A stretch of DNA of 11,594 nucleotides from Nanosynbacter sp. (GTDB lineage: Bacteria > Patescibacteriota > Saccharimonadia > Saccharimonadales > Saccharimonadaceae), in NCBI GenBank assembly GCA_015257705.1, contig JABZJR010000016.1, forward strand, positions 1 to 11,594, read 5' to 3'. The position numbers were made by a program, and so were the translations under genes. Positions 1-11,594 of the stretch are shown here, piece after piece. Every line of letters begins with the position of its first letter. Within the stretch, counting starts at the first letter, position 1. A model generated the notes under the pieces. It had not been told where the DNA came from. It saw only the letters and a list, made by a program, of their open reading frames with translations, and did no database searches.

Positions 1-2
1 CG

Positions 3-587
3 CAACAAGCCGAGACTTTTGTTTCGAGCGAGTTCGCACAGTTTGATTACGAAGTTGACGTAATTATCGCTACGCCTTCGTTTATGCTGCCAACTATCGC
101 CGAGGACGGAATCGCTGGCAAAACGCTTCATTCGCGCTTGATTATGATTTCTGTTGATAAAAGCCAGCACGGGGTTAGCGAGGATTTTATTTTCGAAACG
201 ATTTGCCACGAAATGTCGCATTCGCTGCGTTGGGAAAAACTGCCTGAATATGCCGAAACTATGTTTGATGGGATGATTTTGGAGGGCTTGGCGGTCGCAC
301 TAGAAGAGGAAGCGATGATTAAACTCGGACGGCGAAACCAACAATTTTTCTTGAGAGAAATGCAGAAAACTTCCCAAGCTGAAATTGATAAGATAATTGC
401 CGTACTACAAGACAATTTTGAAGACAAGGCTTACGATTATACCAAAATATTTTTCACCGGCGATGACGTTTTACCGCGCTGGGCGGGGTATAAACTTGGG
501 TATTACTTTGTGAAGCAACACCTACATCAAACTAGTCAGACTATCGCACAGGCGACTTTGGCAAGCTACAAGGATTTTATCCTATAA
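3..587 (+). CDS. DUF2268-like predicted Zn-dependent protease, 5' end missing
   Basis: The frame is open from the first bases of the window, so the gene starts upstream; the ATG at 84 is probably internal. Seen: an HExxH-type zinc motif HEMSH (bases 207-221) inside FETICHEMSHSLRW, followed about 25 residues later by LEGLA, whose Glu (282-284) fits the third zinc ligand position. Before it lies a P-x-GI-x-GKT stretch, and near the C-terminus GYKLGYYFVKQHL. Family knowledge: DUF2268 proteins share the order P...GIxG, HExxHxxR, EGLA and a late GYxxGY segment. Inference: a soluble metallopeptidase-like protein of unknown substrate. No signal peptide can be assessed because the N-terminus is missing. 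It ends 3 bases before the next possible start, suggesting co-transcription with the small ORF downstream. Confidence 0.75.
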   Translation, partial: QQAETFVSSEFAQFDYEVDVIIATPSFMLPTIAEDGIAGKTLHSRLIMISVDKSQHGVSEDFIFETICHEMSHSLRWEKLPEYAETMFDGMILEGLAVALEEEAMIKLGRRNQQFFLREMQKTSQAEIDKIIAVLQDNFEDKAYDYTKIFFTGDDVLPRWAGYKLGYYFVKQHLHQTSQTIAQATLASYKDFIL

Positions 588-590
588 AAA

Positions 591-917
591 TTGAAGAGTC
601 CCCGTCGCGATATGAAGCGGAAGGAAAATGAGAAAGGATTGTCTAATAATCGGCAAATTGACCTCCTGGGGAACAAATCTCTCCTAGAAAAGATAATTAA
701 TATTCGCGCATCCGACTATAGATTCGAAGATAAAATTAAATATTACCAGGGTTTTTACAACAGTAGAGGACAGCGCGTAGGCGGAACAGAAAATCTTGAG
801 CTCAAGAATATAAGCAATGTTTATAAAAAATTCGGAGAAAAAGAAATTGTCGATAGGACTAATTTGTTTATTGACGATTTTATGAATTTACTAGATAAAA
901 ATGGCTTGATTGCTTAA
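591..917 (+). CDS. Hypothetical small protein, up to 108 aa
   Basis: Unrecognised. The longest reading begins at a TTG 3 bases after the upstream stop; the in-frame ATG at 612 (101 aa) is an equally possible start. Neither has a clear Shine-Dalgarno sequence, so translation may depend on coupling to the upstream gene. The product is charged, soluble and Lys/Asn-rich, with no membrane segment and no cysteine. A short stretch, IRASDYRFEDKI, resembles the IRxSExRFYxK segment of RhuM-type proteins, but the rest does not follow, so no function is assigned. It could be a remnant of a longer gene. It stops just before the hairpin that serves as the minus-strand tRNA terminator. Confidence 0.5.
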   Translation: MKSPRRDMKRKENEKGLSNNRQIDLLGNKSLLEKIINIRASDYRFEDKIKYYQGFYNSRGQRVGGTENLELKNISNVYKKFGEKEIVDRTNLFIDDFMNLLDKNGLIA

Positions 918-944
918 AAACAAAAAATCGCCCAGAAGAGCGAT
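912..944 (-). terminator. Intrinsic terminator of tRNA-Gln
   Basis: Read on the minus strand: a 7-bp stem ATCGCTC/GGGCGAT (one G-U) with a TTCT loop (927-944), followed by TTTTTG and TTTTT. It sits about 20 nt beyond the tRNA 3' end. The plus-strand reading lacks a U tract, so it serves the minus strand. Confidence 0.8.
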
Positions 945-963
945 AATTTATGTCTGTCAAATT

Positions 964-1038
964 TGGCTGGGACGGCAGGATTCGAACCTGCGAATGCTGG
1001 GACCAAAACCCAGTGCCTTACCGCTTGGCGACGTCCCA
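964..1038 (-). tRNA. tRNA-Gln (anticodon UUG), CCA encoded
   Basis: Complete cloverleaf on the minus strand: acceptor TGGGACG (1032-1038) pairs with CGTCCCA (968-974); D-arm stem GCC/GGC with loop AAGCGGTAA; anticodon stem CTGGG/CCCAG with loop TTTTGGT giving anticodon TTG, which reads CAA/CAG; T-arm stem GCAGG/CCTGC with canonical loop TTCGAAT; discriminator G at 967; CCA encoded at 964-966. The body is 72 nt. The U1-A72 first pair is typical of bacterial tRNA-Gln. It has its own extended -10 promoter and terminator and is divergent from the methyltransferase gene. Confidence 0.97.
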
Positions 1039-1058
1039 CTATTGCCAGGACAATGACG

Positions 1059-1067
1059 ATTATAGCA
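1059..1067 (-). promoter_or_regulatory. Extended -10 promoter of tRNA-Gln
   Basis: The minus strand reads TGCTATAAT (TGn plus a perfect TATAAT at 1059-1064). Predicted transcription start is near 1052, leaving a leader of about 14 nt before the tRNA 5' end at 1038. No convincing -35. Confidence 0.7.
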
Positions 1068-1094
1068 CGCCAGACAGAAAAAATCCACACATCC

Positions 1095-1103
1095 TGATAT
1101 AAT
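1095..1103 (+). promoter_or_regulatory. Extended -10 promoter of the RNA methyltransferase gene; leaderless start
   Basis: TGATATAAT, with the perfect -10 at 1098-1103. The ATG at 1112 follows after 8 nt, so the predicted transcription start coincides with, or lies within 2 nt of, the start codon. No -35 is evident. It stands back to back with the tRNA promoter, the two -10 boxes being 33 nt apart. Confidence 0.65.
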
Positions 1104-1111
1104 ATAACCTA

Positions 1112-2425
1112 ATGAGAAAACAAATTTTTGAGACTTTAAGATTGGAAAAAATCGTTGGCGGCGGGCAAGCCATCGGAACACTTGACGACGGTCGCAAAGC
1201 GTTCGTCTGGGGAGGGCTGCCAAAAGAACTTGTAACGATTCGCGTGACAAAGAAAAAATCGCACTTCGTCGAAGGAATAGTGACGGAAATTATCGAGGAA
1301 AGTCCAGAGCGAATTACGCCGAAAGATGAAAATAGTTATTTAAGCACCAGTCCTTGGCAAATAATGCCGATGTCCAGCGAGCAATCACACAAAGCGTCGC
1401 TAATCGAAGAGGCTTTTTTGCTTCACAATATTACATTGCCTGAAAAAATCGAGGTATTTTCTGACGGCGTAGAATTTAATTATCGCAATAAAGTCGAGTT
1501 CAGTTGGTTCGGCGACAAAACGGACGACGACGAAAAAGAAACTTTAGACTTGGCGTTTTTCAAGCGTGGCGGCAAAGGGAAAGTCATCGTTGATGGAACC
1601 AGCTTGGCGCATCCGAGCATAGATAAATTGGCAATTGAAATCCGCGACCTCTTACGAGAAAAACCGATTGTCGCGCGCCAATTAAAAACACTCCTGATTC
1701 GCTCAGACCAACAGGGAAACGCCGTCTGGCAATTGTACATGAAAGATAAGATGAAAAATCTGATTTCCGACAATGAAGCCAAATTATTATCAGCCAAAGG
1801 TGGCGAAATAATTTACTCCGACCCCAAAAGCCCAGCCAGCAGAATCACCGAACGCTTGAACAAATTCGGCGACACGACACTGAGCGACACGATTTTAGGC
1901 GTCGCCTTCAACTACGCCTGCGAAGGATTTTTCCAAGTCAACATTCCCGTTTACGAAAAAGCCCTGAGCGACATGAAAGCGTGGATTAATTGCAATGAAA
2001 AAATGCCGACGCTCGACCTTTACTCTGGAGTTGGGACAATCGGTTTGACAATTGGAGGCGATGACGTGACGCTCGTGGAGATTAACGAACATGCCGTCGC
2101 GGAAATGCAAAGGAATATTGCCAAACTGAATCGACCGAACGCCAAGGCAATTTTGGCGCCGAGCGAAAAATCTTTGGAATATATAACGGGCGAGCAAATT
2201 GTCATCGTTGATCCGCCTCGCGCTGGACTTCACGCGGATGTTACTAATAGACTGCTGGAAACAGAGCCGCCTCGGATTATTTATCTGAGCTGTAATCCAG
2301 TCACGCAAGCGCGAGACGTCAGACTGCTCCAAGAAAAATATGAAATCGCGCATCATCAAGGCTACAATTTCTTCCCGAGGACGCCACACATTGAGCACCT
2401 TGTGGTTTTGGATAAGAAAGCGTAA
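1112..2425 (+). CDS. TrmA/RlmD-family RNA (uracil-5-)-methyltransferase
   Basis: SAM-dependent m5U methyltransferase of rRNA or tRNA, 437 aa, usual length for the family. Domains in order: TRAM RNA-binding domain (about 8-60), central insert domain, Rossmann methyltransferase domain (about 265-437). Motifs seen: FQVN (274-277), SAM motif I DLYSGVGTIG (302-311), motif IV VDPPRAGL (366-373), the catalytic SCNP (nucleophile Cys394), and HIEHL (426-430) with the catalytic Glu. The [4Fe-4S] cysteines of E. coli RlmD are absent: the matching region (about 78-100) has none, and the only cysteines are 270, 294 and 394. The target base cannot be assigned: RlmD-, RlmC-, RlmCD- or TrmA-like activity are all possible. 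The start is set by the adjacent -10. The downstream gene begins 9 nt after the stop. Confidence 0.9.
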   Translation: MRKQIFETLRLEKIVGGGQAIGTLDDGRKAFVWGGLPKELVTIRVTKKKSHFVEGIVTEIIEESPERITPKDENSYLSTSPWQIMPMSSEQSHKASLIEEAFLLHNITLPEKIEVFSDGVEFNYRNKVEFSWFGDKTDDDEKETLDLAFFKRGGKGKVIVDGTSLAHPSIDKLAIEIRDLLREKPIVARQLKTLLIRSDQQGNAVWQLYMKDKMKNLISDNEAKLLSAKGGEIIYSDPKSPASRITERLNKFGDTTLSDTILGVAFNYACEGFFQVNIPVYEKALSDMKAWINCNEKMPTLDLYSGVGTIGLTIGGDDVTLVEINEHAVAEMQRNIAKLNRPNAKAILAPSEKSLEYITGEQIVIVDPPRAGLHADVTNRLLETEPPRIIYLSCNPVTQARDVRLLQEKYEIAHHQGYNFFPRTPHIEHLVVLDKKA

Positions 2426-2434
2426 TCTATAGCC

Positions 2435-2812
2435 ATGAAGACTAGAATATTAAAGCAAGCTACGTTTAGAGGAATCATTCCTTTTGTTATAATGTCGGCA
2501 TTAGCTCTCATAATGACATATCAAAAAATTGACCCGTCACAAACTAAGGGGACATTCTTAACTGGCGTCATAATATCCATAATTGCAGCCGCATCTGTAA
2601 TATACGACATCGAAAAATGGTCACTACTTAAACAATCTGCCATACATTTTATCGTCATGATATTAACAATTTTTCCTTGTCTATTGATAAGTGGCTGGTA
2701 CGAGTTAAGCTCGTTCGCAGACTATTTGAAAGTATTCGGAATATTTTTACTATGCGGTTGCGTTTTCTGGACTATAGGATATATCGTTTTTGGCAAATTA
2801 CTGAATAGATAG
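2435..2812 (+). CDS. DUF3021-like four-helix membrane protein
   Basis: 125 aa with four predicted membrane segments at about 12-30, 41-58, 68-88 and 101-120 and a short basic C-terminus (GKLLNR). The RGIIPF start, the KGTFLTG entry to helix 2, the YDIEKWSLLKQSAIHF loop and overall size fit DUF3021. In other bacteria DUF3021 genes usually sit beside LytTR-type regulators; none is present here. It probably shares the methyltransferase transcript, starting 9 nt after that stop, and no own promoter or Shine-Dalgarno sequence was seen. It converges on the ATPase with 8 nt between stop codons and no terminator between them, so the two transcripts probably overlap. Function unknown. Confidence 0.7.
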   Translation: MKTRILKQATFRGIIPFVIMSALALIMTYQKIDPSQTKGTFLTGVIISIIAAASVIYDIEKWSLLKQSAIHFIVMILTIFPCLLISGWYELSSFADYLKVFGIFLLCGCVFWTIGYIVFGKLLNR

Positions 2813-2820
2813 ACAAGTTC

Positions 2821-5133
2821 CTACCGAACAATTCGTCGACCAGCCCAGCGAGCAATGAATAGCTGGGCCAACATTGCTACGACAATTGCGCCAGCTGCTG
2901 GCCACATTATGAACAAATTCGGCACAGTAAAGTCGAAGAAATCGCGTAGGAAACCAAAACTAAAGCTTCCAGCCGCCACAATAATCACCGACAGAAGATA
3001 AAGCAGACGAGCGCGCTTGGCAGATTTATCGATGGTTACGTCCAGCATAATTCCCACTAAGAATACCAAATATACGCCAAACAAAGTCGCGGTAAGTACG
3101 GTCATCGTTGCGACTTCTGCAGCGTGACCAGGGAACATAACAGAAGTAATCCAATAGGTGAACGCGACAGTCACGCCAGTAATTAAAGCAATCGGCGTAA
3201 CAGCCAGCAAAGTATCGTGCCAGAATCTCTTCGGATTTATTCGATGCTTCGGAACCGGCGGAAACAGCGTCCACATAAGAGTTGGCATCGTCACCAGAAA
3301 AATATTCATAAACGTAATATGGCGCGGCGAATACGGATAATTCATATTGATGAGAATCGTCGCAAGAAGAAGCGTCACGCCGTAAATAATTTTATGGAAA
3401 AACAGAACAGCGATGACTTCGATTGCTTGCATAATTTGATTGCCCAATTTCATTCCCATCGGCAGAGAAGTGAACGAATTGTTGAGCAATATAATGTCGG
3501 AAACTCGACGAGAAGCCGGCGCACCAGCGTACATTGCCACACCGAGATCAGCCTTTTTCAGCGCCAAAGCGTCATTTACGCCGTCGCCAACCATACCAGT
3601 GAATTTTCCCGATTGCTGGAATCGATTAATCAAGCGCTCTTTTTGATCCGGCAAAACTCTGGCAAAAATCGTGTAAGTATCAGCCGCCTTATTAAATTCA
3701 TCTTCGCTAAGTGCCGCCAAATCTTCGCCTAAAATCGCCTTTTCTGGATGTTTAATTCCAGCCTCCTTAGCGATGTATTGAACCGTGCGCGGATTATCAC
3801 CAGAGATTACGCGAATAGTTACACCTTGGCGCTGCAAAAAATCCACCGTTTCAACAACGCCATGACGCAGGGAATTGCGCAGAACAACCGCACCGATTGC
3901 CGTTCCAGAACCGTTTTTCAAGTCTTTCAATTTGGTTTTATCGTCCGAAAATTCAGCCAACATCAACACGCGCAAACCATTGTCAGCCCAATCATTCAAC
4001 TTCTTCTGAGTTTCCTTATCCACTGGCGCCAACTTCGACACAAACTCTGGCGCGCCCATCATTAACGTCCGAATTTCACCGTCAATATTCGCCCTCACGC
4101 CAGCCATTTTACGCGCCGACGAAAACGCCATAACTTCCAAAACTTTCGTATTTTTTGGCGACGTAGCTTCCGCCAAAATTGCACGACCAGTGATATTTCC
4201 GCCGCTGGTTTCATGAGCAATTAACGCCGCAAAACTGGCAATGTCAGTTTCCGAATAGCCAATCTTATCACTGAACGCCACTACTTTTTCAAGCGTAACT
4301 TCATCGCTAGTCAAGGTGCCTGTTTTATCTACGGCCAGCAAATTCAGAAGTGCCATGGCTTCAATTGCTGACAGTTTTTGCGGCAAGACTTTCGACTGAG
4401 CTAATCGCAGTGAGCCGAACGCCAAAAGTAGTGAACTCGCCAATAACAGACCTTCCGGCACGACCGTAACCGCCGCCGAAGTGATGGTTTTTAAGATGAC
4501 AACGACGTTATCGCCAGAGAAATAATAGACGATAGCAATAAGTAGCGACAGGACAATTGCGCCATAAGTCAAGAAGTAAATTGCGCGCCAAATCGCCAAT
4601 TGCAGAGGCGTGAGTTCTGGTTTGTAACGTTTCAAGACTTGGCTAATCGCACCAGCTTTCGTGTCGTCGCCAATCGCAATTACTCGCGCTGTACCTTCAC
4701 CAGCCAAAACCGTCGTCGCCGCCAACACGACATCGCCGTCCTTTTTCTCAATCGACGCAGACTCGCCGGTCAACATACTTTCATTCAGCTCCAAACCTTT
4801 CGACTCGATAACTTTCGCATCCGCCGGCAATTCATCGCCAGCCTGAATAAGAATTTCATCGCCAATTTTAAGCTCATCATAACCGACCTCGACAATATTT
4901 CCGTCTTTTAACAATCGAGCTTTCGGCGCGCTCATCAGCTCCAATTGACGCAAAACTCGCTTGGCCCTTAGCTCCTGAATAATGCCAATTGTCGAATTCA
5001 CGATAATCACCACCGAAATAAACCACGCATCACGATATTCTCGAACATAAACCAGCGCGCCAGCCAACAGAAAAATCACCACGACAATAGGTGAAAGCAG
5101 ATTCCGCTTGATAATGTCCAAGTAGTCGCGCAT
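2821..5133 (-). CDS. CtpE-like P-type cation-transporting ATPase
   Basis: ATP-driven cation pump of the inner membrane, 770 aa. Seen in order: TM1-2 (about 13-55), actuator domain with TGES (122-125), TM3-4 (about 183-240) containing PEGL (226-229), phosphorylation motif DKTGTLT with Asp269, MGAPE (359-363) at the KGAPE position, SGDNP (444-448), ARVLPDQK (491-498), hinge GDGVND (516-521), then about six helices to the C-terminus. No CPC metal motif, so not a heavy-metal pump. The IGIIQELRAKR stretch and the PEGL helix are most like mycobacterial CtpE-type pumps, for which calcium uptake has been reported; the ion here is an inference. The cytosolic segment before TM1 is very short (about 12 residues). 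An in-frame TAG eight codons upstream, with no start codon between, fixes the ATG. It overlaps the preceding gene as TAATG. Confidence 0.9.
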   Translation of the reverse strand: MRDYLDIIKRNLLSPIVVVIFLLAGALVYVREYRDAWFISVVIIVNSTIGIIQELRAKRVLRQLELMSAPKARLLKDGNIVEVGYDELKIGDEILIQAGDELPADAKVIESKGLELNESMLTGESASIEKKDGDVVLAATTVLAGEGTARVIAIGDDTKAGAISQVLKRYKPELTPLQLAIWRAIYFLTYGAIVLSLLIAIVYYFSGDNVVVILKTITSAAVTVVPEGLLLASSLLLAFGSLRLAQSKVLPQKLSAIEAMALLNLLAVDKTGTLTSDEVTLEKVVAFSDKIGYSETDIASFAALIAHETSGGNITGRAILAEATSPKNTKVLEVMAFSSARKMAGVRANIDGEIRTLMMGAPEFVSKLAPVDKETQKKLNDWADNGLRVLMLAEFSDDKTKLKDLKNGSGTAIGAVVLRNSLRHGVVETVDFLQRQGVTIRVISGDNPRTVQYIAKEAGIKHPEKAILGEDLAALSEDEFNKAADTYTIFARVLPDQKERLINRFQQSGKFTGMVGDGVNDALALKKADLGVAMYAGAPASRRVSDIILLNNSFTSLPMGMKLGNQIMQAIEVIAVLFFHKIIYGVTLLLATILINMNYPYSPRHITFMNIFLVTMPTLMWTLFPPVPKHRINPKRFWHDTLLAVTPIALITGVTVAFTYWITSVMFPGHAAEVATMTVLTATLFGVYLVFLVGIMLDVTIDKSAKRARLLYLLSVIIVAAGSFSFGFLRDFFDFTVPNLFIMWPAAGAIVVAMLAQLFIARWAGRRIVR

Positions 5134-5621
5134 TAGCTTGTCCGAATCCTTCTGTAGCTAAACCTCGCACCGACTCGCCAATTTCCGTACGCGTCAGAAT
5201 CGAATTGATATATCTCGCCATTTTTCACTTCAGAAATCAAAACCAAGGCAGGATTATACGGCGCCAAAGTTTTATAAAAATGCAAATCTTCATCAGTAAC
5301 GTGCTTTCTTCCAGGGAAAACTTCGCGGAATTTACGTTTGCCGATATCTTCAAAATATCGCGGCTGACCTTTTGGCGGAAGAAATAATTCCGCACGCATA
5401 CCCATTCGCGAAATTATCTTTTTAACGTCAGATAAAATCAACGGCGAAGTCGCCTCCAAATACATCATCAGCTGCTTTTTATTCGTCAAAAACACCGACG
5501 CCTTAGCAGTGCGACTAACATCGGCGTGCCACAAAATTATTGATTGAACATCAATTGGAAAACCAAATTTTTCCTTAGCAATTCGCTCCAGCGCCAGCTC
5601 GTCGTACGTCGCCTTATTCAT
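5133..5621 (-). CDS. Conserved-looking hypothetical protein, 162 aa, operon partner of the ATPase
   Basis: Unrecognised soluble protein: no membrane segment, no signal peptide and no cysteine. The N-terminal half has alternating strand-like stretches (SIILWHA, ASVFLTNKKQLMMYLEA); the middle is basic (about 65-105), and the C-terminus ends in YRRIRTS. Codon use matches the neighbours, so it is likely a real gene. Its TAA shares one base with the ATPase ATG (TAATG), the classic arrangement for termination-reinitiation, so the two should be made together. Its ATG lies 7 nt after an extended -10, predicting a leaderless message for the operon. A link to pump function is an inference from coupling only. 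Confidence 0.75.
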   Translation of the reverse strand: MNKATYDELALERIAKEKFGFPIDVQSIILWHADVSRTAKASVFLTNKKQLMMYLEATSPLILSDVKKIISRMGMRAELFLPPKGQPRYFEDIGKRKFREVFPGRKHVTDEDLHFYKTLAPYNPALVLISEVKNGEIYQFDSDAYGNWRVGARFSYRRIRTS

Positions 5622-5628
5622 AGATAAT

Positions 5629-5637
5629 ATTTTACCA
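5629..5637 (-). promoter_or_regulatory. Extended -10 promoter of the ATPase operon; leaderless start
   Basis: The minus strand reads TGGTAAAAT, 7 nt before the ATG at 5621. Its position leaves no room for a Shine-Dalgarno sequence. No clear -35. Confidence 0.6.
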
Positions 5638-5676
5638 TTTTTTTATGAGGTGCGCGAGATGGCAAAGATGTGAAAT

Positions 5677-5799
5677 CTAATAGCCAACCTGTCTGACCGA
5701 TTCGACTGATTGACGGGAAATATCCAAGTGGCTTTTACCCTTAAACGCGTCTTCTGGATGTTTTTCATTCACCCTCTTAATACTGAATCTATAACCTTA
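5677..5799 (-). other. Short open frame without ATG in the 5622-5866 intergenic gap, possible gene remnant
   Basis: The 245-nt gap holds a minus-strand frame open from a stop near 5797 to TAG at 5677. The only good start is GTG at 5772, preceded by AAGAG, giving 31 codons (NEKHPEDAFKGKSHLD and onwards). Composition and codon use look coding-like, but no promoter is visible. It may be a decayed gene end, a very small gene or chance. The rest of the gap holds the promoters of the flanking genes and nothing else I recognise. Confidence 0.25.
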
Positions 5800-5851
5800 G
5801 ACGAATTCTGTAAATAGCAATTTTGATATCGCGTTCTGAAGGCTGCCAACA

Positions 5852-5860
5852 TGGTAGAAT
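5852..5860 (+). promoter_or_regulatory. Extended -10 promoter of the helicase gene; leaderless start
   Basis: TGGTAGAAT ends 6 nt before the ATG at 5867, so the predicted transcription start falls on or next to the start codon. No convincing -35 at the normal distance. Confidence 0.6.
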
Positions 5861-5866
5861 AAAACT

Positions 5867-6478
5867 ATGGATTTCAATACTCGTTACGCTAAATTAAACG
5901 ATAATCAACGACAAGCAGTCGACTACATTCACGGATCGCTTTTAGTAATTGCTGGGCCGGGAACGGGGAAAACCGAGCTTCTAAGTATGCGCACTGCCCA
6001 AATCCTGAAACAGACCGACACTTTACCGAACAGTATTTTATGCTTGACGTTTACTGAAAGTGGTGCCACAAATATGCGCCAACGACTCCGCCAGATTATC
6101 GGTGAGGACGCGTATAAAATTGCGATTCACACGTTCCACAGCTTCGGCACAGAAATCATCAATCAACATCGCGAGTATTTTTTCCGTGGCGCCGACGCTC
6201 AGCCGGTTGACGAATTGACGCAATATCAAATTATCTCTGGAATACTCGAAGGACTTGATTGGCGAAATCCATTAAGCGCAAAAAACAACGGGGAATTTGT
6301 CTACATCAAGGAACTCATTCGCATTATTTCAGAGTTCAAGCAAAGTGGTCTAACGCCGTCAGAATTGCGGGCAATTATTGAGGACAATCAAGTACAATCG
6401 CCGAAATTGCGCCAGACATTCAGCAAGTATTTTCCGCCAAAATATCGAAAAAGACGATTGAAATGTTTGCGCCGATAG
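5867..6478 (+). CDS. UvrD/AddA-like helicase, N-terminal part (frameshifted)
   Basis: Superfamily 1A helicase N-terminus. Seen: Q-motif region LNDNQRQAV (10-18), Walker A GPGTGKT (30-36), motif Ia LCLTFTESGATNMRQRL (about 58-74), motif Ib IHTFHSFGTEII. After about residue 174 the frame gives an unlikely basic tail (SPKLRQTF to LKCLRR) while the -1 frame over the same bases encodes helicase-like sequence (IAEIAPDIQQVFSAKISKK) that runs directly into the next ORF. This entry is therefore the 5' third of one gene spanning 5867-9162, about 1098 aa if one base is restored. It alone lacks motifs II-VI and could bind but not productively use ATP. Confidence 0.85.
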   Translation: MDFNTRYAKLNDNQRQAVDYIHGSLLVIAGPGTGKTELLSMRTAQILKQTDTLPNSILCLTFTESGATNMRQRLRQIIGEDAYKIAIHTFHSFGTEIINQHREYFFRGADAQPVDELTQYQIISGILEGLDWRNPLSAKNNGEFVYIKELIRIISEFKQSGLTPSELRAIIEDNQVQSPKLRQTFSKYFPPKYRKRRLKCLRR

Positions 6479-9162
6479 CTGAGAAAATTGCCAATTTAGC
6501 CGCCAAAAACCCTGACGAGAAAAGCTCAAAATTGCCAGCCTCAATCACGCCACACGCCAACGTTTTGGCGCTGAGCATCGTGCACGCCACCCAAGAAGCA
6601 CTTGACGAAAACTCAACCAAGCCGCTGACTGCTTGGAAAAGTAAATGGTGCGAAAAAAACGCCAATGGCGAATTTGTCCTGAAAGATTTTACCGCCGCAG
6701 AAAAATTATCCGCCGCAATTGACGTTTACGAAAAATATGTAAATATTTTGTCCGAGCGCTCGTTATTTGACTACGATGACATGATTTTATCCGTTATTCA
6801 AGCCTGCGAATCTCACCCAGAACTGCGCGCAAATCTCCAAGAGCAATTCCAGTTCATCATGGTTGACGAGTTCCAGGACACGAACTTGGCGCAATTACGA
6901 TTACTGTTCAATTTGACTAGCGAGAACGACGACAATCCAAACATCATGGCGGTTGGCGACGACGACCAAGCAATCTTCAGCTTCCAAGGCGCAGACGTAG
7001 GCAACATCCAGCGTTTCCGTCAACATTATCACGACCCAAAAATCATCGTTTTGACCGATAATTATCGTTCCGCCGAAAACATTTTATCATCGGCACGGGA
7101 CGTCATCACCCAAGGCGCGGATCGATTGGAAAACACAATTGACGGGCTATCAAAGCAATTGACCGCACACGCAAATAGCGAAGGCTCAAAAGTCGAAATC
7201 CAAGAATTCTCATCTGTTAGCGAAGAGCGAGCGGGAATTGCCAAACAAATTGCCGAGCTGATAAAAAATGGCGAGAAACCAGAAAACATCACGATTATTG
7301 CGCGCCACCATAAGGAACTCATTGAAATTCTTCCGCATCTTTATAAGGAAAATCTTTTTGTCAATTACGAGCGTCACGACGACATTCTGGAGCAAGATAT
7401 AATTCAGATTCTGGACAAATTAGCGCGAACTGTCGTGGCGATTAGTCAGAATAATTTGGACGTTGCCAATAGTCTAATACCGGAAATTACGGCTCATCCA
7501 GCGTTTGGATTTTCTGCGCTGGACATCTGGAAGTTGAGCCTTCAAGCTTACAAAAATCGGCAATTGTGGCTGGAAAGTATGTTGGCGAATAGCGTATTTA
7601 AGGAATTTGCGGAGTGGCTTTTGGAACGCGCTAAAGACGTACCGAATCTGCCATTGGAAGAGCAATTGGACAATTTATTAGGCTTAACTAACGATGAAAG
7701 CGACAATCTTCAGGTCAATTCTCTCGCCAGTTTCTATTTCTCGCCAGAAAAGCTAGATAAAAACCCAGAAGCATATCTGACGATTCTGGAAAGCTTGCGC
7801 ACTTTGCGCCAAAAACTTCGCGATCGAATCACTGATAAAAATCCAACACTGGAAGATTTTTTGGAATTTATTGACCTGCACATTTCGACAAAAACTCGCT
7901 TAACACAAATTCGCACGCACGCAAGTTCACTCAGCGGCGCTATAAATTTGATGACCGCTCATAAATCCAAAGGTCTGGAATTTCCGCACGTTTTCGTGAT
8001 TGGGGCAATTGACAGCGCTTGGGGTGAAAAAGTTCGTTCACGCAGTCGAGCTATCCGATATCCCGCAAACCTCCAACTTCAGCCAGCGGGCGCCACTTAC
8101 GACGAACGACTTCGGCTATTCTTTGTGGCGATGACTCGCGCCAAAACCACATTGACCATGACTTATTCTCAAACCAACGATTCTGGCAGCGACACGATCA
8201 TCGCCAGTTTCTTGACTAATTGCACGCCAACCATCATTCCAACCAGCGACGATCCAGCCGAACAAATTGAACTGGCTGAAACCGACTGGACGACGCGGCT
8301 AACTTCACCGATTGTTCCGGAATTAAAGGATTTATTGGCGCCAGCGCTGGAAACATACAAGCTTTCCGCGACGCATTTGAATAATTTCCTCGACGTTTCA
8401 CGTGGCGGACCGCAAAATTTCTTATTGAACAATTTGCTACATTTTCCATCCGCCAAAAATTCCGCCGCAGCTTACGGAACTGCGATTCACAGCAGCCTCC
8501 AGCAAGCACATTGCTCATTCAGCGCCGATCACCAATTACCAAGCACCGAACAAATTCTCCAATTTTTCCAAAAATCCCTCGAAAGCCAGTATTTGCCAGC
8601 GGACGATTTTCAATTGTATTTAGACAAAGGGAAGTCGGCTTTGACTGCGTTCTTAAACGCCAAATCTTCAGATTTTCACGATACGGACTTGGCGGAATTA
8701 GACTTTTCAAACCAAGGCGTAATTATAGATAACGCCAGATTGACTGGTAAACTTGACGTTATCGACATCGACAAGCAAAACAAAACCATATTTGTAACGG
8801 ATTATAAAACTGGCAAGCCAGCGCATTCCTGGAAAGGTTCGGCTGATTACGAGAAAATCAAACTTCATAAATATCGTCAGCAATTGATGTTCTATCAGCT
8901 GCTGGTCGAGCATTCACGCGATTATAGCAATTTCACGTTTACCGGCGGGCGATTACAATTTGTCGAGCCAGACATGAAGACTGGCGATATTCTTAGCTTG
9001 GAAGATACATTCTCCAGAGAAGAATTGACTGAATTTGCACAACTGATTGAGATTATTTGGCAAAAAATCACCACGTTAGATCTGCCAGACATTTCTGAGT
9101 ATTCGGCGGATTATAAGGGAATGTTGCAATTCGAAAAAGACCTGCTGACGGGCGAAATATAA
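6463..9162 (+). CDS. UvrD/AddA-like helicase with C-terminal RecB-type nuclease domain (remainder of frameshifted gene)
   Basis: The ATG at 6463 is probably not a true start: the frame is open from 6382 and continues the upstream ORF. Helicase motifs (residues of this ORF): Walker B/motif II DEFQDTN (135-141), motif III VGDDDQAIFSFQGAD (164-178), motif IV NYRSAENIL (200-208), motif V MTAHKSKGLEF (about 501-511), motif VI FFVAMTRAK (about 557-565). The C-terminal PD-(D/E)xK nuclease of the RecB/AddB type shows GTAIH (His676), GKLDVIDID (Asp764), DYKTGK (Asp780, Lys782) and QQLMFYQLL. Family knowledge: such fusions process double-strand ends for recombinational repair, AddA being the closest architecture. 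No addB-like partner is in the window. The gene appears monocistronic. Confidence 0.88.
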   Translation: MFAPIAEKIANLAAKNPDEKSSKLPASITPHANVLALSIVHATQEALDENSTKPLTAWKSKWCEKNANGEFVLKDFTAAEKLSAAIDVYEKYVNILSERSLFDYDDMILSVIQACESHPELRANLQEQFQFIMVDEFQDTNLAQLRLLFNLTSENDDNPNIMAVGDDDQAIFSFQGADVGNIQRFRQHYHDPKIIVLTDNYRSAENILSSARDVITQGADRLENTIDGLSKQLTAHANSEGSKVEIQEFSSVSEERAGIAKQIAELIKNGEKPENITIIARHHKELIEILPHLYKENLFVNYERHDDILEQDIIQILDKLARTVVAISQNNLDVANSLIPEITAHPAFGFSALDIWKLSLQAYKNRQLWLESMLANSVFKEFAEWLLERAKDVPNLPLEEQLDNLLGLTNDESDNLQVNSLASFYFSPEKLDKNPEAYLTILESLRTLRQKLRDRITDKNPTLEDFLEFIDLHISTKTRLTQIRTHASSLSGAINLMTAHKSKGLEFPHVFVIGAIDSAWGEKVRSRSRAIRYPANLQLQPAGATYDERLRLFFVAMTRAKTTLTMTYSQTNDSGSDTIIASFLTNCTPTIIPTSDDPAEQIELAETDWTTRLTSPIVPELKDLLAPALETYKLSATHLNNFLDVSRGGPQNFLLNNLLHFPSAKNSAAAYGTAIHSSLQQAHCSFSADHQLPSTEQILQFFQKSLESQYLPADDFQLYLDKGKSALTAFLNAKSSDFHDTDLAELDFSNQGVIIDNARLTGKLDVIDIDKQNKTIFVTDYKTGKPAHSWKGSADYEKIKLHKYRQQLMFYQLLVEHSRDYSNFTFTGGRLQFVEPDMKTGDILSLEDTFSREELTEFAQLIEIIWQKITTLDLPDISEYSADYKGMLQFEKDLLTGEI

Positions 9163-9191
9163 AAATATTCTGGTATATTGTTGCATTTTTT

Positions 9192-9212
9192 TATAATTAG
9201 TGTTATTATAAT
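9192..9212 (+). promoter_or_regulatory. Probable promoter of the leader / 54-aa ORF transcript
   Basis: Two TATAAT hexamers lie in a very AT-rich stretch, at 9192-9197 and 9207-9212. The second would start transcription near 9219, just before the leader hairpin. -35 support is weak (TTGCAT at 9181-9186, with 20-nt spacing). Neither box abuts an ATG, unlike the other promoters here. Confidence 0.4.
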
Positions 9213-9227
9213 AAACGCTTTATTGGT

Positions 9228-9289
9228 AGAGCTGACTTTTCGAGTTATGCTCTCTAGGAGCATAATTAGGAGGTCGGCTCTTTTCTTTT
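9228..9289 (+). promoter_or_regulatory. Branched terminator-like leader hairpin (possible attenuator)
   Basis: Outer stem AGAGCTGAC (9228-9236) pairs with GTCGGCTCT (9273-9281) over 9 bp with one G-U. An inner stem TTATGCTC (9245-9252) pairs with GAGCATAA (9258-9265) over 8 bp with loop TCTAG. TTTTCTTTT follows (9281-9289). This has the form of an intrinsic terminator placed between a promoter and the Shine-Dalgarno of the 54-aa ORF. It is either an attenuator or leader element, or a true terminator for the upstream helicase transcript. No known riboswitch consensus was recognised. Confidence 0.5.
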
Positions 9290-9305
9290 AGAAAGGGTGA
9301 TATCC

Positions 9306-9470
9306 ATGTTTGACACATGGACGCCTAAGCAGCGAGAAACTGCTATCAAGAAGGGTATGGCTGGAGGGCAGCTCAGCCCGTACGAGCGCACTAAGCTCGA
9401 AGAGGCCGCCAAGCAGGCAGGCTCTGTCGGGCAGAAGGCGAAAGACGCCCTCAACAAGAGTAAGGGTTAG
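9306..9470 (+). CDS. Small basic protein, 54 aa, unknown function
   Basis: ATG to TAG. It has the best ribosome binding site in the window: AGAAAGG-GTGAT (9290-9300) is nearly complementary to the usual 16S 3' end, with normal spacing. The product is Lys-rich (9 Lys, 2 Arg, 6 acidic), without Cys or membrane segment. It reads KQRETAIKKGMAGGQLS then YERTKLEEAAKQAG, a likely pair of amphipathic helices split by a Gly/Ser-Pro turn. Codon use differs sharply from neighbours: Lys is AAG 8 of 9, Gln is CAG 4 of 4, Leu is CTC 3 of 3, whereas adjacent genes favour AAA and CAA. That suggests very high expression or foreign origin. No family was recognised. It lies between the leader hairpin and the structured RNA and may share their transcript. 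Confidence 0.65.
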   Translation: MFDTWTPKQRETAIKKGMAGGQLSPYERTKLEEAAKQAGSVGQKAKDALNKSKG

Positions 9471-9480
9471 AACTGGCTCT

Positions 9481-9489
9481 TGTTAAATT
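9481..9489 (+). promoter_or_regulatory. Possible internal promoter of the structured RNA
   Basis: TGTTAAATT has the TGn extended -10 layout of the other promoters here but a poorer hexamer. It would start RNA near 9496, exactly at the first hairpin (CATAGAT/ATCTATG). No -35. Confidence 0.3.
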
Positions 9490-9601
9490 GACGGTCATAG
9501 ATCTTAACCCATCTATGAAAAAGTTGATTTAGAATCAGCAAAAGAGCGTCCGTCCGCTCCTGGCGTGATTCAGCCAGCCGGTAGTCCGGAAAAGAATCAA
9601 G

Positions 9602-9684
9602 GGACGCGCAGGATAACCCCTCGATTCTCCACGACGAAGTGGTTAATCGAGGATGGACGGGTTTAACTCCCGTCGCGTCCGCCA
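9602..9684 (+). other. tRNA-like element 1 (acceptor stem, T-arm, long hairpin, GCCA end)
   Basis: GGACGCG (9602-9608) pairs over 7 bp with CGCGTCC (9674-9680), followed by GCCA. Directly stacked on it is a 5-bp arm ACGGG/CCCGT (9657-9673) with a 7-nt loop TTTAACT, which fits the T-loop pattern except for U at the C56 place. Instead of D and anticodon arms it has an unpaired 12-nt stretch and a long hairpin: TCGATT/AATCGA (9621-9626, 9645-9650) enclosing CCAC/GTGG with loop GACGAA. There are 48 nt between acceptor and T-arm, against about 41 in a normal tRNA, and no usable anticodon arm. The layout is that of a tmRNA end or a bacterial Y-RNA tRNA-like module rather than a decoding tRNA. Confidence 0.5.
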
Positions 9685-9817
9685 TCCGGCAATTAAAAAA
9701 CCTAACGCTGTCGAGCGCCCCAACGGGCGGCGTTCAGGTTCATCAATACTCCCCGCTAGACGATGGCGCCTAGCAACGTGAGCCGGCACGTGGAAGTATT
9801 GATGTTTTCTAATTTTC

Positions 9818-9893
9818 GGGCTCGCGAGATTCACTCGTGGCAGTTTTTCTCGACGTTGAGAATTACTCCGAGCAGAACCGCTTGAGCCCGCCA
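9818..9893 (+). other. tRNA-sized closed element 2 with GCCA end
   Basis: GGGCTCG (9818-9824) pairs with TGAGCCC (9883-9889, last pair G-U), followed by GCCA; 73 nt plus CCA, tRNA size. Inside are CGAG/CTCG (9825-9837), TTCTC/GAGAA (9847-9862) with loop GACGTT, and a weak GAGC/GCTT hairpin with loop AGAACC. There is no canonical T-loop, D-loop or anticodon, so it is not called a tRNA. The tail GCCATCC matches that of element 1. Confidence 0.35.
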
Positions 9894-9895
9894 TC

Positions 9896-9938
9896 CCCCT
9901 CATTCTCAAAGGCGAGAGTGAGGGGTTTTCTCCTTTTT
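9896..9938 (+). terminator. Strong intrinsic terminator of the structured RNA
   Basis: A 12-bp stem CCCCTCATTCTC/GAGAGTGAGGGG (9896-9907, 9914-9925; one G-U) with loop AAAGGC, then TTTTCTCCTTTTT. Only the plus strand has the U tract. It ends 1 nt before the extended -10 of the next gene. Confidence 0.9.
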
Positions 9939-9939
9939 G

Positions 9940-9948
9940 TGATAAAAT
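9940..9948 (+). promoter_or_regulatory. Extended -10 promoter of the dihydrouridine synthase gene; leaderless start
   Basis: TGATAAAAT ends 7 nt before the ATG at 9956. It begins immediately after the terminator U tract, so the upstream RNA is insulated while this gene starts anew. No -35 hexamer, as the terminator occupies that space. Confidence 0.6.
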
Positions 9949-9955
9949 AACAGAG

Positions 9956-10927
9956 ATGACATCGTTTTGGAATGATTTACCGCAGCCATTTTTCATATTG
10001 GCACCAATGGAAGCCGTCACCGACGTCGTGTTTCGTCATGTCGTGAAACAAGCTGGCGCGCCAGATATATTTTTCACCGAGTTCGCAAATGCTACCGGCT
10101 GGGTGCATGCTGGCGATAAGGCCATAGCTGGGCGACTAATTAAAACTGACGATGAGCAGCCGCTCATTGCGCAAATCTGGGGTGGCGAGCCAGGGGACAT
10201 GGAAGCTTTCGCTAAGCACTGCGCGGAACTTGGTTTTAACGGAATTGATATCAATATGGGATGTCCCGCCAAATCTGCCATTAAAAGCGGTGGCGCGGCT
10301 CTGATTCGTCGACCCGACATAGCGATAGCCGCAATTGATGCCGCCAAAAAATCTGGATTGCCTGTTAGCGTAAAAACTCGACTGGGCTATACTTACGTCG
10401 ACGAGTGGCGCGAGTGGCTGACGACAATTCTCAAACAAGACATCGTGAACCTGACAATTCATCTGCGCACAAAAAAAGAGATGAGCAAAGTTGCGGCGCA
10501 TTATGAATTGATTGACGAGATTGTTAAGCTGCGCGATGAAATTGCCCCACAAACACTCCTGACTATCAACGGCGACATTCGCGACCGAGAACATGGGCTG
10601 GAAATTGCCAGAAAGCATCCTGGCGTGAATGGAATTATGATCGGGCGAGGCGTTTTCAGTGATCCGTTCTGCTTCCGCGAGTTGAAGGTTGACGCAGACG
10701 ATCATAAAGAAGAACTGTTGGCGCTTCTTAATTATCACTTAGATTTATTTGATTCTTACCAGCCGATTTTAGGGCGACCTTTTGAAACCTTAAAACGTTT
10801 TTTCAAGATTTATATTCGCGATTTTGATGGTGCAAAGGAACTTCGGGAGAAATTGATGCACACCACGACGACCGACGAGGTGCGATCAATACTTGCACAC
10901 AACGATCATCCACATTATACTTATTGA
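9956..10927 (+). CDS. tRNA-dihydrouridine synthase (DusB-like)
   Basis: FMN- and NADPH-dependent enzyme that reduces uridines in tRNA D-loops; 323 aa, normal length. TIM-barrel FMN domain (about 1-240) shows APMEAVTDVVFR (16-27), GIDINMGCPAKS (96-107) with catalytic Cys103, VSVKTRLGY (137-145) with the FMN-contacting Lys140, IHLRTKKE (168-175), NGDI (205-208) and IMIGRGVFSDPF (227-238). A helical C-terminal domain (about 245-323), typical of Dus proteins, binds tRNA. The start is supported by the -10 placed 7 nt upstream. The next gene begins one base after the TGA, so they form an operon. The exact position modified cannot be told from sequence. Its place directly after a tRNA-like RNA may be coincidental. 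Confidence 0.92.
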   Translation: MTSFWNDLPQPFFILAPMEAVTDVVFRHVVKQAGAPDIFFTEFANATGWVHAGDKAIAGRLIKTDDEQPLIAQIWGGEPGDMEAFAKHCAELGFNGIDINMGCPAKSAIKSGGAALIRRPDIAIAAIDAAKKSGLPVSVKTRLGYTYVDEWREWLTTILKQDIVNLTIHLRTKKEMSKVAAHYELIDEIVKLRDEIAPQTLLTINGDIRDREHGLEIARKHPGVNGIMIGRGVFSDPFCFRELKVDADDHKEELLALLNYHLDLFDSYQPILGRPFETLKRFFKIYIRDFDGAKELREKLMHTTTTDEVRSILAHNDHPHYTY

Positions 10928-10928
10928 C

Positions 10929-11384
10929 ATGACAACAAAAAAACAAAAACTGCAAAAACAACAGGCCATAGACACATGGATCGTCATAGCATTATGGGTA
11001 AGTGCTATCTGGTTCTCGCTCGCACGCGGATTAATTACTGGCATCGGCGGTTGGGTACTAGCACTACTTGGCCCGTGGGTGCTTATCGTTAGCTGTATCT
11101 GTCTTGCAATCATCTCCCGACAAATGAAAAAACGCCATGCATCAAAAGACCATCTCACCACAATAGTACGTGTTTCCTTTATCGTCATGTCAATCTCATT
11201 ATTTATCTGCGGCCTTGCAATGCCTGATTTTAGCGACATGGAGACCTTTTCAACATTATCCGTGTATACAAATAACGCTATTTCATTTAAAACATCAAAA
11301 ACTATCGCCATTATCTCAGGGTTTGTAGTGGTTCTGTCTCTATTCGTGGCTGTTACTTTTGGTATCGCTGAAGATAAAGAATAG
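10929..11384 (+). CDS. Hypothetical four-helix membrane protein, 151 aa
   Basis: The ATG at 10929, one base after the upstream TGA, is preferred to the in-frame ATG at 10893, which would lie inside the synthase gene. Seen: a basic N-terminus (TTKKQKLQKQQ), then four hydrophobic segments at about 15-37, 39-62, 75-95 and 122-144, with a Lys/Arg-rich loop (RQMKKRHASKDH) between the second and third and an acidic C-terminal end (AEDKE). By the positive-inside rule both ends lie in the cytoplasm. No catalytic motif and no recognised family. Probably translated by coupling to the synthase gene; no own promoter or ribosome binding site is visible. Confidence 0.7.
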   Translation: MTTKKQKLQKQQAIDTWIVIALWVSAIWFSLARGLITGIGGWVLALLGPWVLIVSCICLAIISRQMKKRHASKDHLTTIVRVSFIVMSISLFICGLAMPDFSDMETFSTLSVYTNNAISFKTSKTIAIISGFVVVLSLFVAVTFGIAEDKE

Positions 11385-11388
11385 ACGA

Positions 11389-11410
11389 CGGAAGACGTCG
11401 CTATTTAGAT
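11389..11410 (+). terminator. Weak hairpin after the membrane protein gene
   Basis: CGACG/CGTCG with loop GAAGA lies just after the stop codon and is followed by CTATTTAG. The stem is short and the U tract poor, so termination here is uncertain. Confidence 0.25.
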
Positions 11411-11448
11411 TAGTATTAATTAGAGTCTTAGTACTATACGCAAATTGA

Positions 11449-11477
11449 TTGAAAAAGTATAGTTATTATGATATAAT
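11449..11477 (+). promoter_or_regulatory. Near-consensus promoter of the last ORF; leaderless start
   Basis: TTGAAA (11449-11454), 17-nt spacer, then TGATATAAT with a perfect -10 at 11472-11477. The ATG follows after 6 nt at 11484. This is the best promoter in the window, the only one with both a -35 and an extended -10. Confidence 0.75.
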
Positions 11478-11483
11478 ATAAGT

Positions 11484-11594
11484 ATGTTATCTTCAGCAAT
11501 GCGTGCATGTGGCATATTACACCAGGATCAGCCAAAGAGAAAACTGCGTACAGCAATAGAAAATACACCCAGCGGACAACTACTCATAGTAAAC
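11484..11594 (+). CDS. Unknown protein, N-terminal 37 codons only
   Basis: Open frame from ATG 11484 to the window end without a stop. It begins MLSSAMRACGILHQDQPKRK and continues to GQLLIV. Too little is present to assign a family; there is no obvious signal peptide or membrane segment. Support for being real comes from the strong promoter whose -10 ends 6 nt before the ATG, the same layout as the confident genes in the window. Confidence 0.55.
   Translation, partial: MLSSAMRACGILHQDQPKRKLRTAIENTPSGQLLIVN

Follow-up and report, generated by a model that had tools for sequence, protein, structure and literature searches.

Introduction

GOLLD is presented as a large pseudoknotted RNA of phages and bacteria, with unknown function, a conserved 3' part, a less conserved 5' part and tRNAs that sometimes lie in the linker (PMC12286853). 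The long RNAs MALAT1 and MENbeta contain the tRNA-like elements mascRNA and menRNA, and maturation needs RNase P (PMC11693755). Among bacterial RNAs, the yjdF riboswitch is described as resembling a tRNA in its overall shape (PMC9142559). Here, we describe a locus on an 11,594-nucleotide stretch of DNA from Nanosynbacter sp. (contig JABZJR010000016.1, positions 1 to 11,594 of the forward strand; hereafter, the window), in which an earlier note had pointed to a large structured RNA at 9496..9938, between a short open reading frame and the tRNA-dihydrouridine synthase gene dus. The noted RNA is best explained as two thirds, on the 3' side, of an RNA gene that lies between a UvrD-like helicase gene and dus on the chromosome of Saccharibacteria (TM7), ultra-small parasites of other bacteria. 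No account of such a locus was met in the searches made of the open-access literature.

Results

Structure and Covariation of the Intergenic Region

The region 9470-9940 folds with an energy of -192.4 kcal/mol, compared with a mean of -145.2 (sd 6.2) for 100 dinucleotide shuffles, none of which was as good (0/100; z -7.6). By this measure, the succession of stems over ~440 nt described in the earlier note is borne out. Its two tRNA-sized closed elements were recovered as the tRNA-like domain at 9602-9684 and the junction domain at 9818-9889, and its 12-bp terminator is present at 9896-9925, with Ts after it. Both the letters and the fold show the 10-bp closed three-way junction (9741-9750 with 9795-9804), which is missing in the two nearest relatives. 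The limits given in the note likewise enclose a real structured stretch, but the unit is larger, apparently starting near 9228 and including a 54-amino acid (aa) open reading frame (ORF). The first stem of the computed fold (9473-9478 with 9572-9577) is probably wrong, since it competes with the hairpin 9560-9563/9574-9577, which is kept in 6/6 aligned loci.

Related loci (80, numbered L) were collected through dus homology, and genome-wide counts refer throughout to relatives' genomes (numbered G), not to the window's own. Five of the 80 aligned to 9160-9960 by blastn (L001, L002, L004, L005 and L008), with a sixth, L033, aligning only marginally (E 0.014). The window dus protein shares 98% identity over residues 1-283 with its counterpart in L002 (oral taxon 352), which is cut off at the contig edge, and is 85% identical to that of L001.

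Alignment of the 5' domain in six loci gave 34 pairs in seven helices, comprising five hairpins (9495-9501/9512-9518, 9523-9526/9536-9539, 9544-9548/9555-9559, 9560-9563/9574-9577 and 9578-9581/9586-9589) and two pseudoknots (9490-9494/9550-9554, GACGG/CCGUC, and 9567-9571/9594-9598, GAUUC/GAAUC). Pairing was observed in 95.6% of cells, with broken cells in the second and third helices. Both sides had changed in 9 of the 34 pairs, compared with 3.9 in shuffles (0/500 reach 9), and sliding the alignment by 1 to 3 columns gave at most 2 such changes. The first pseudoknot reads GGCGA/UCGUC in L008; GAUUC/GAAUC and CUGG/CCAG are invariant across the six loci and so have no covariation support, and further pair types showed no excess over shuffles (97/500). 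Compensatory changes, which the earlier note had proposed to seek at this locus in related genomes, are present, and the domain is a structured RNA under selection for pairing. A model of it (R1) matched once in each of 5 of 295 family genomes.

Comparison with Known RNA Classes

The Rfam scan suggested in the note was run, and no known family matches the region. At E ≤ 1, the sole match in the whole window was an ordinary tRNA-Gln at 967-1038, outside the UvrD-dus gap; at E ≤ 10, five matches were obtained in 9160-9960, all far under their gathering scores. ARAGORN reported only the tRNA-Gln in the window and no transfer-messenger RNA (tmRNA). GOLLD, ROOL and OLE were matched neither in the window nor in ten relatives' loci (E ≤ 0.5), and the yjdF riboswitch was not among the window's Rfam matches. 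The fold, the Rfam result and the compensatory changes together uphold the description of a multi-domain structured RNA outside the Rfam families. What lies here appears to be a genuine large RNA gene of Saccharibacteria that fits no described class.

The size and the pseudoknots would suit a divergent RNase P RNA or tmRNA, one of the identities offered in the earlier note. RNase P RNA (RF00010) gave no match in the window (E ≤ 1) or in 9160-9960 (E ≤ 10), and tmRNA (RF00023; cut-off 47 bits) gave none in the window. In eight relatives' genomes, five of them carriers of the window-type RNA, RF00010 matched over the cut-off elsewhere, once in each (8/8; 233-269 bits), and RF00023 matched elsewhere over the cut-off and along the whole model (8/8; 67-93 bits). 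Given that all eight relatives carry ordinary copies of both at other places, this identity is refuted for them and is vanishingly improbable for the locus. Below the cut-off, the tmRNA model matched L002 (5754-5827, 21.3 bits), L004 (5764-5835, 26 bits) and L008 (16.3 bits). The tmRNA-like flavour suspected earlier is therefore seen insofar as the tRNA-like domains of L002 and L004 score on the tRNA-like end of the model, but these scores stay under the cut-off.

The tRNA-like Domain of the Window

This domain has an acceptor stem with 7/7 pairs (9602-9608/9674-9680, GGACGCG/CGCGUCC) and a T-arm (9657-9673, ACGGG-UUUAACU-CCCGU) with 5/5 T-stem pairs and the loop UUUAACU, followed by G73 at 9681 and CCA at 9682-9684. 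A proper D stem is missing, and the anticodon arm is replaced by a 12-pair hairpin (8-bp plus 4-bp), so that the element lacks the 7-nt anticodon loop with U33 of a decoding tRNA but has an encoded CCA end. Among 3000 shuffles of the gap, one scored as high. Over five loci, the acceptor and T stems pair in 60/60 cells, in rows found by a scan that demands pairing; L001 was left out of this count because of its 8-nt T-loop. Both sides had changed in 4 of 12 pairs (shuffles 2.2; 31/500 reach it), six cells had both-side changes (0/500 shuffles), and further pair types were as in shuffles (347/500).

Such a domain might belong to a special chargeable tRNA or to a tmRNA-like RNA acting outside normal translation. 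G3-U70 with A73 is the alanine signal, and G3-U70 occurs in 3/5 loci, together with A73 in L004, L008 and L005 5506; the GCCA at 9681-9684 and the sub-threshold similarity of relatives to the tmRNA model also favour this reading. The window, however, has A3-U70 and G73, a CCA end is absent from 23 of the 26 Rfam-found elements of related loci, and a CCA-adding enzyme (PF01743) was not found in eight of eight relatives' genomes. A chargeable RNA is accordingly an improbable explanation.

tRNA-like Elements at Related Loci

A UvrD-like gene lies upstream of dus in 58 of the 80 loci, a few of which bear no title beyond bacterium or Patescibacteria; of the remaining 22, 14 are Firmicutes by title and 8 are contigs ending within 1.4 kb before dus. 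The UvrD-dus gap measures 245-2360 nt in 55 of the 58 and 31-56 nt in 3. A strict scan of 56 gaps (the 55 and the window) returned 33 tRNA-like elements in 25 gaps, at least three of which look false (L040, L054 and the third in L005), compared with 0.65 in shuffles and 2 on the opposite strand. Their density was 33 in 53,122 gap bases versus 16 in 587,241 flank bases. The Rfam tRNA model was run on 31 loci, namely L001, L002, L004, L005 and L008; L024, L025, L043, L052 and L061; and 21 more that were pre-chosen as having gaps flagged by ARAGORN or the strict scan. Over the gathering score, 26 elements were found in 18/31 loci, every one inside the UvrD-dus gap (26/26). None was found in L006, L014, L015 or L031 of the 21, and among the other ten loci only L005 had any; a tRNA-Sec-like match in L005 (43 bits, under the 47-bit cut-off) was not counted.

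Judged generously, by asking for 4 of 5 stem pairs and a 7-nt loop with U33, 11/26 of these elements had a usable anticodon arm; under a stricter rule, 4/26 did. CCA was encoded in 3/26, and both features occurred together in 1/26, whereas C74 was kept in 25/26. Both U33 and CCA were found in 62/62 control tRNAs, a set leaning to good tRNAs (42/42 of G001, taken from ARAGORN, and 20/20 from G132 and G170, plus-strand rows of at least 64 bits). The head domain of the CCA-adding enzyme (PF01743) was found in 10 bacterial controls and not found in the eight relatives' genomes (8/8), so that those elements which do not encode CCA are most likely never charged. The lowest tRNA score of the genome falls at this locus in G170 (37.4 bits) and G132 (25.1 bits), and the other elements of the locus there score in the normal range (50.7 and 55.6 bits, respectively). 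The elements of this locus retain the elbow, the acceptor/T stack and N73-C74. Given that most have no usable anticodon or no CCA, they are mostly not decoding tRNAs.

Many elements without anticodon and CCA at a fast-changing locus could also be decaying extra tRNA genes and functionless intergenic debris, and scans that demand good acceptor and T-arms are biased toward a picture of spared tRNA bodies. Decay would not, however, be expected to hit the anticodon and CCA yet spare the acceptor, the T-arm and C74, and stems covary in both the 5' domain and the tRNA-like domain; we consider it very unlikely.

Bacterial RNase P reads the elbow, the acceptor/T stack and C74, the last of which is a contact of the enzyme. 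Given that the parts kept are those of RNase P and the parts lost (anticodon, CCA) are those of translation, the element is proposed to mark a cut and cap an end. Judged by its sequence, it may be a candidate RNase P substrate, with the elbow, the acceptor/T stack and C74 as possible determinants, and the presence of RNase P RNA in 8/8 genomes counts for this proposal. We favour, tentatively and with somewhat less than even confidence, the reading that these elements serve a fast-changing RNA/peptide gene as tRNA-shaped modules for processing by RNase P and for stability.

Several observations weigh against it. No element was found in 31/56 gaps by the strict scan or in 13/31 loci with the Rfam model, so that cutting by RNase P would not be universal at the locus, and in L009 and L053 the tRNA-like element stands upstream of the ORF, so that a fixed order of mRNA and then cut is not general. 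A U33 loop is present in 11 of the 26 elements, and the window element encodes GCCA and is chargeable in principle. Its T-loop has U at 56, and L001, with its 8-nt T-loop, was missed by the tRNA-like scan. The lean of the control tRNAs bears on the comparison with them, and the absence counts come from relatives' genomes of unstated completeness.

ORF Family and Module Exchange

The 54-aa ORF (MFDTWTPKQRE..., preceded by AGAAAGGGTGAT) had no Pfam match, and none of its 8 homologous clusters is named. This family ('QAGS', family A3) occurs in one copy each in 9 of 101 family genomes. Within the 3-kb locus, six of the nine copies lie between the UvrD-like gene and dus, two have dus only (in one of these, L156, dus is on the other side) and one has neither. 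ORFs of ~50 aa that follow a strong ribosome-binding site are present at other loci; sorted by eye, from a list that includes chance ORFs, they form the QAGS family, a cysteine-rich group and a QSVKNAD group. In the enlarged gap of L008, from gap position 1409 onwards, lies a 196-aa ORF with the motif HPFNDGNGRTGRLL, which we take to be Fic-like.

Identity among the window, L001 and L002 is 92-97% over the last part of the UvrD-like gene, the leader, the 3' domain with its terminator and dus, 84-93% in the 5' domain and 74-80% in the tRNA-like domain. The promoter and leader stretch is 96.8% (L001) and 94.5% (L002) identical to the window, and 9816-9955 is 94.2% and 94.9% identical, respectively; the 3' domain is kept in four relatives (L001, L002, L004 and L006), with looser relatives in L003 and L005. 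The ORF is common to the window and L001 (95.8%). That of L002 shows no DNA or pairwise protein similarity to the window ORF, and hhalign places it as a distant QAGS member (probability 88%, E 3e-6, 18% identity), so the swap in L002 is between family members. A middle module is common to L001 and L002 (93.9% over 33 nt) and the window has another: between flanks that are both similar, those two loci carry 34-36 nt of different sequence in place of the window's variable module, and the three-way junction shows no similarity to this insert beyond an 11-nt chance match. In sequence terms, the three would form a mosaic of shared and swapped modules, within a comparison of three close genomes.

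This mosaic fits a hypervariable arms-race locus. Its tRNA-like body would act as a stable scaffold, or as a decoy meant for a phage, a host factor or a toxin that cuts tRNA, and its exchangeable payloads would be the ORF, the insert in the anticodon arm and the stems of the middle part. The several ORF families agree with it, as does the range of element sizes, from a GCAA loop up to total lengths of 128 nt in L038 and 155 nt in L048. The L002 swap, however, stays within one family; no toxin, phage or defence gene is tied to the locus; blastn against 50,697 phage records gave no match; and R1 gave E values of 0.47 or worse in the 19 viral contigs that matched a loop pattern. Module exchange hints at this explanation, the main rival and one compatible with the RNase P mechanism; it is possible, though on the doubtful side.

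Large inserts were observed in the anticodon region of the tRNA bodies at L028 5097-5200, L038 5508-5635 and L041 2546-2662, and in the D region at L048 5320-5474. A tRNA scaffold is the engineers' term for a tRNA body that displays RNA inserts, and these bodies resemble natural examples. The locus as a whole could be a widespread, fixed but hypervariable RNA/peptide gene built on this principle: a tRNA body, in most cases lacking an anticodon or CCA in cells that apparently cannot add the latter, would display exchangeable RNA inserts and be accompanied by a peptide of 50 aa that is itself exchangeable. Such a gene would be a diversity locus against phages or the actinobacterial host; we rate this as rather unlikely.

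Layout of the Unit

The apparent unit spans ~9228-9939, and its parts are listed with their neighbours in Table 1. Within the 3' domain, a hairpin GCGAGAUUCACUCGUG, a variable hairpin and a hairpin CGAGCAGAACCGCUUG follow in order. The promoter is assumed, as no sigma-70 consensus promoter passed a scan of 9100-10000. The UvrD-like helicase is read as two overlapping ORFs in different frames (5867-6478, 203 aa, and 6463-9162, 899 aa), reflecting either a broken gene or a sequencing error.

Table 1. Features of the unit and its neighbours in the window
Feature	Position	Strand	Basis or remark
UvrD-like helicase part with PD-(D/E)XK nuclease domain	6463..9162	+	upstream syntenic neighbour
Leader hairpin, 9228-9236 with 9273-9281, then T-run	9228..9289	+	presumed transcript start
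54-aa ORF	9306..9470	+	'QAGS' family peptide
5' pseudoknotted domain	9484..9601	+	alignment of 6 loci, covariation
tRNA-like domain	9602..9684	+	letters, scan, covariation in 5 loci
Strain-variable module: hairpin 9699-9740 and 10-bp closed three-way junction 9741-9804	9685..9815	+	differs in L001/L002
3' domain, closing stem 9818-9823/9884-9889	9818..9889	+	conserved in relatives
Intrinsic terminator, 12-bp stem and T-run	9896..9939	+	between RNA and dus; conserved in L001/L002
dus, tRNA-dihydrouridine synthase	9956..10927	+	downstream syntenic neighbour

The leader hairpin with its T-run ahead of the ORF and the terminator ahead of dus raise the question of a cis-acting leader or attenuator controlling either gene, and, as dus acts on tRNA, feedback through a tRNA-like element is thinkable. 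The terminator, however, separates the RNA from dus, the structure is mostly located 3' of the ORF, and the gap sizes range as widely as given above, so cis control appears unlikely.

A Sister Form with a Long-range Closing Stem

Some stem of at least 12 bp with arms more than 200 nt apart occurs in 27/55 gaps (shuffles 8.3). One recurrent stem, GACAGGAAUAGUGC/GCACUAUUCCUGUC, was found in 22 gaps with 10-17 bp and arms ~270-950 nt apart, enclosing much of the gap; its carriers include L023, L024, L025, L036, L043, L052 and L061. In this stem, 11/12 pairs covary over 16 rows, which were chosen for complementarity. The count omits L025, L046, L053, L054 and L061, whose 12 pairs duplicate those of a retained row, L067 and L080 because of their shortness, and L026 and L068, where a long-range stem lacks the motif; it includes L029 as an addition. 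When only the 5' arm was used as the starting point, 16/21 motif-bearing gaps had a complementary 3' arm of at least 10 bp (random-position mean 6.1). This control is not clean, in that 11/21 gaps also gave 10 bp at the best of 20 random positions. No Rfam class was found in the five sister-form loci scanned (L024, L025, L043, L052 and L061), and the closing stem was sought and not found in the window (5.6 bits, 4-bp stem).

Discussion

Under the RNase P reading, the locus would probably give one transcript of ~0.7 kb containing the mRNA of the 54-aa peptide, the pseudoknotted RNA, the tRNA-like domain, further stems and the terminator. The tRNA-like element would recruit RNase P, which may cut at its 5' side, here before G9602, and so part the ORF and 5' domain from the rest. 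By analogy with mascRNA in MALAT1, the compact tRNA-like fold could then shield the new end, and the released pieces, with or without the peptide, might be the active product. What is at issue is a gene that stands at the same place in many Saccharibacteria, whose own enzymes are probably unable to make tRNAs of its tRNA-shaped parts, and it can be tested in cultured oral strains.

Among known systems, the yjdF riboswitch shares the tRNA-like shape, but it is a small cis aptamer. MALAT1 and MENbeta likewise hold a tRNA-like element within a long RNA, and the RNase P step would be common to both; they are, however, unrelated human nuclear long noncoding RNAs. The likeness to tmRNA lies in a tRNA-like domain with a helix replacing the anticodon arm, in pseudoknots and in an mRNA part, whereas here no tag frame is joined to the tRNA-like domain, and relatives have an ordinary tmRNA elsewhere. 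GOLLD is similarly a large pseudoknotted RNA with a conserved 3' part (PMC12286853). Unlike GOLLD, the Saccharibacterial locus has a fixed chromosomal place, an ORF within the unit and tRNA-like parts that are mostly unable to decode. The ornate RNAs GOLLD and ROOL, which are linked to phages, would gain in it a counterpart that is chromosomal and carries an ORF.
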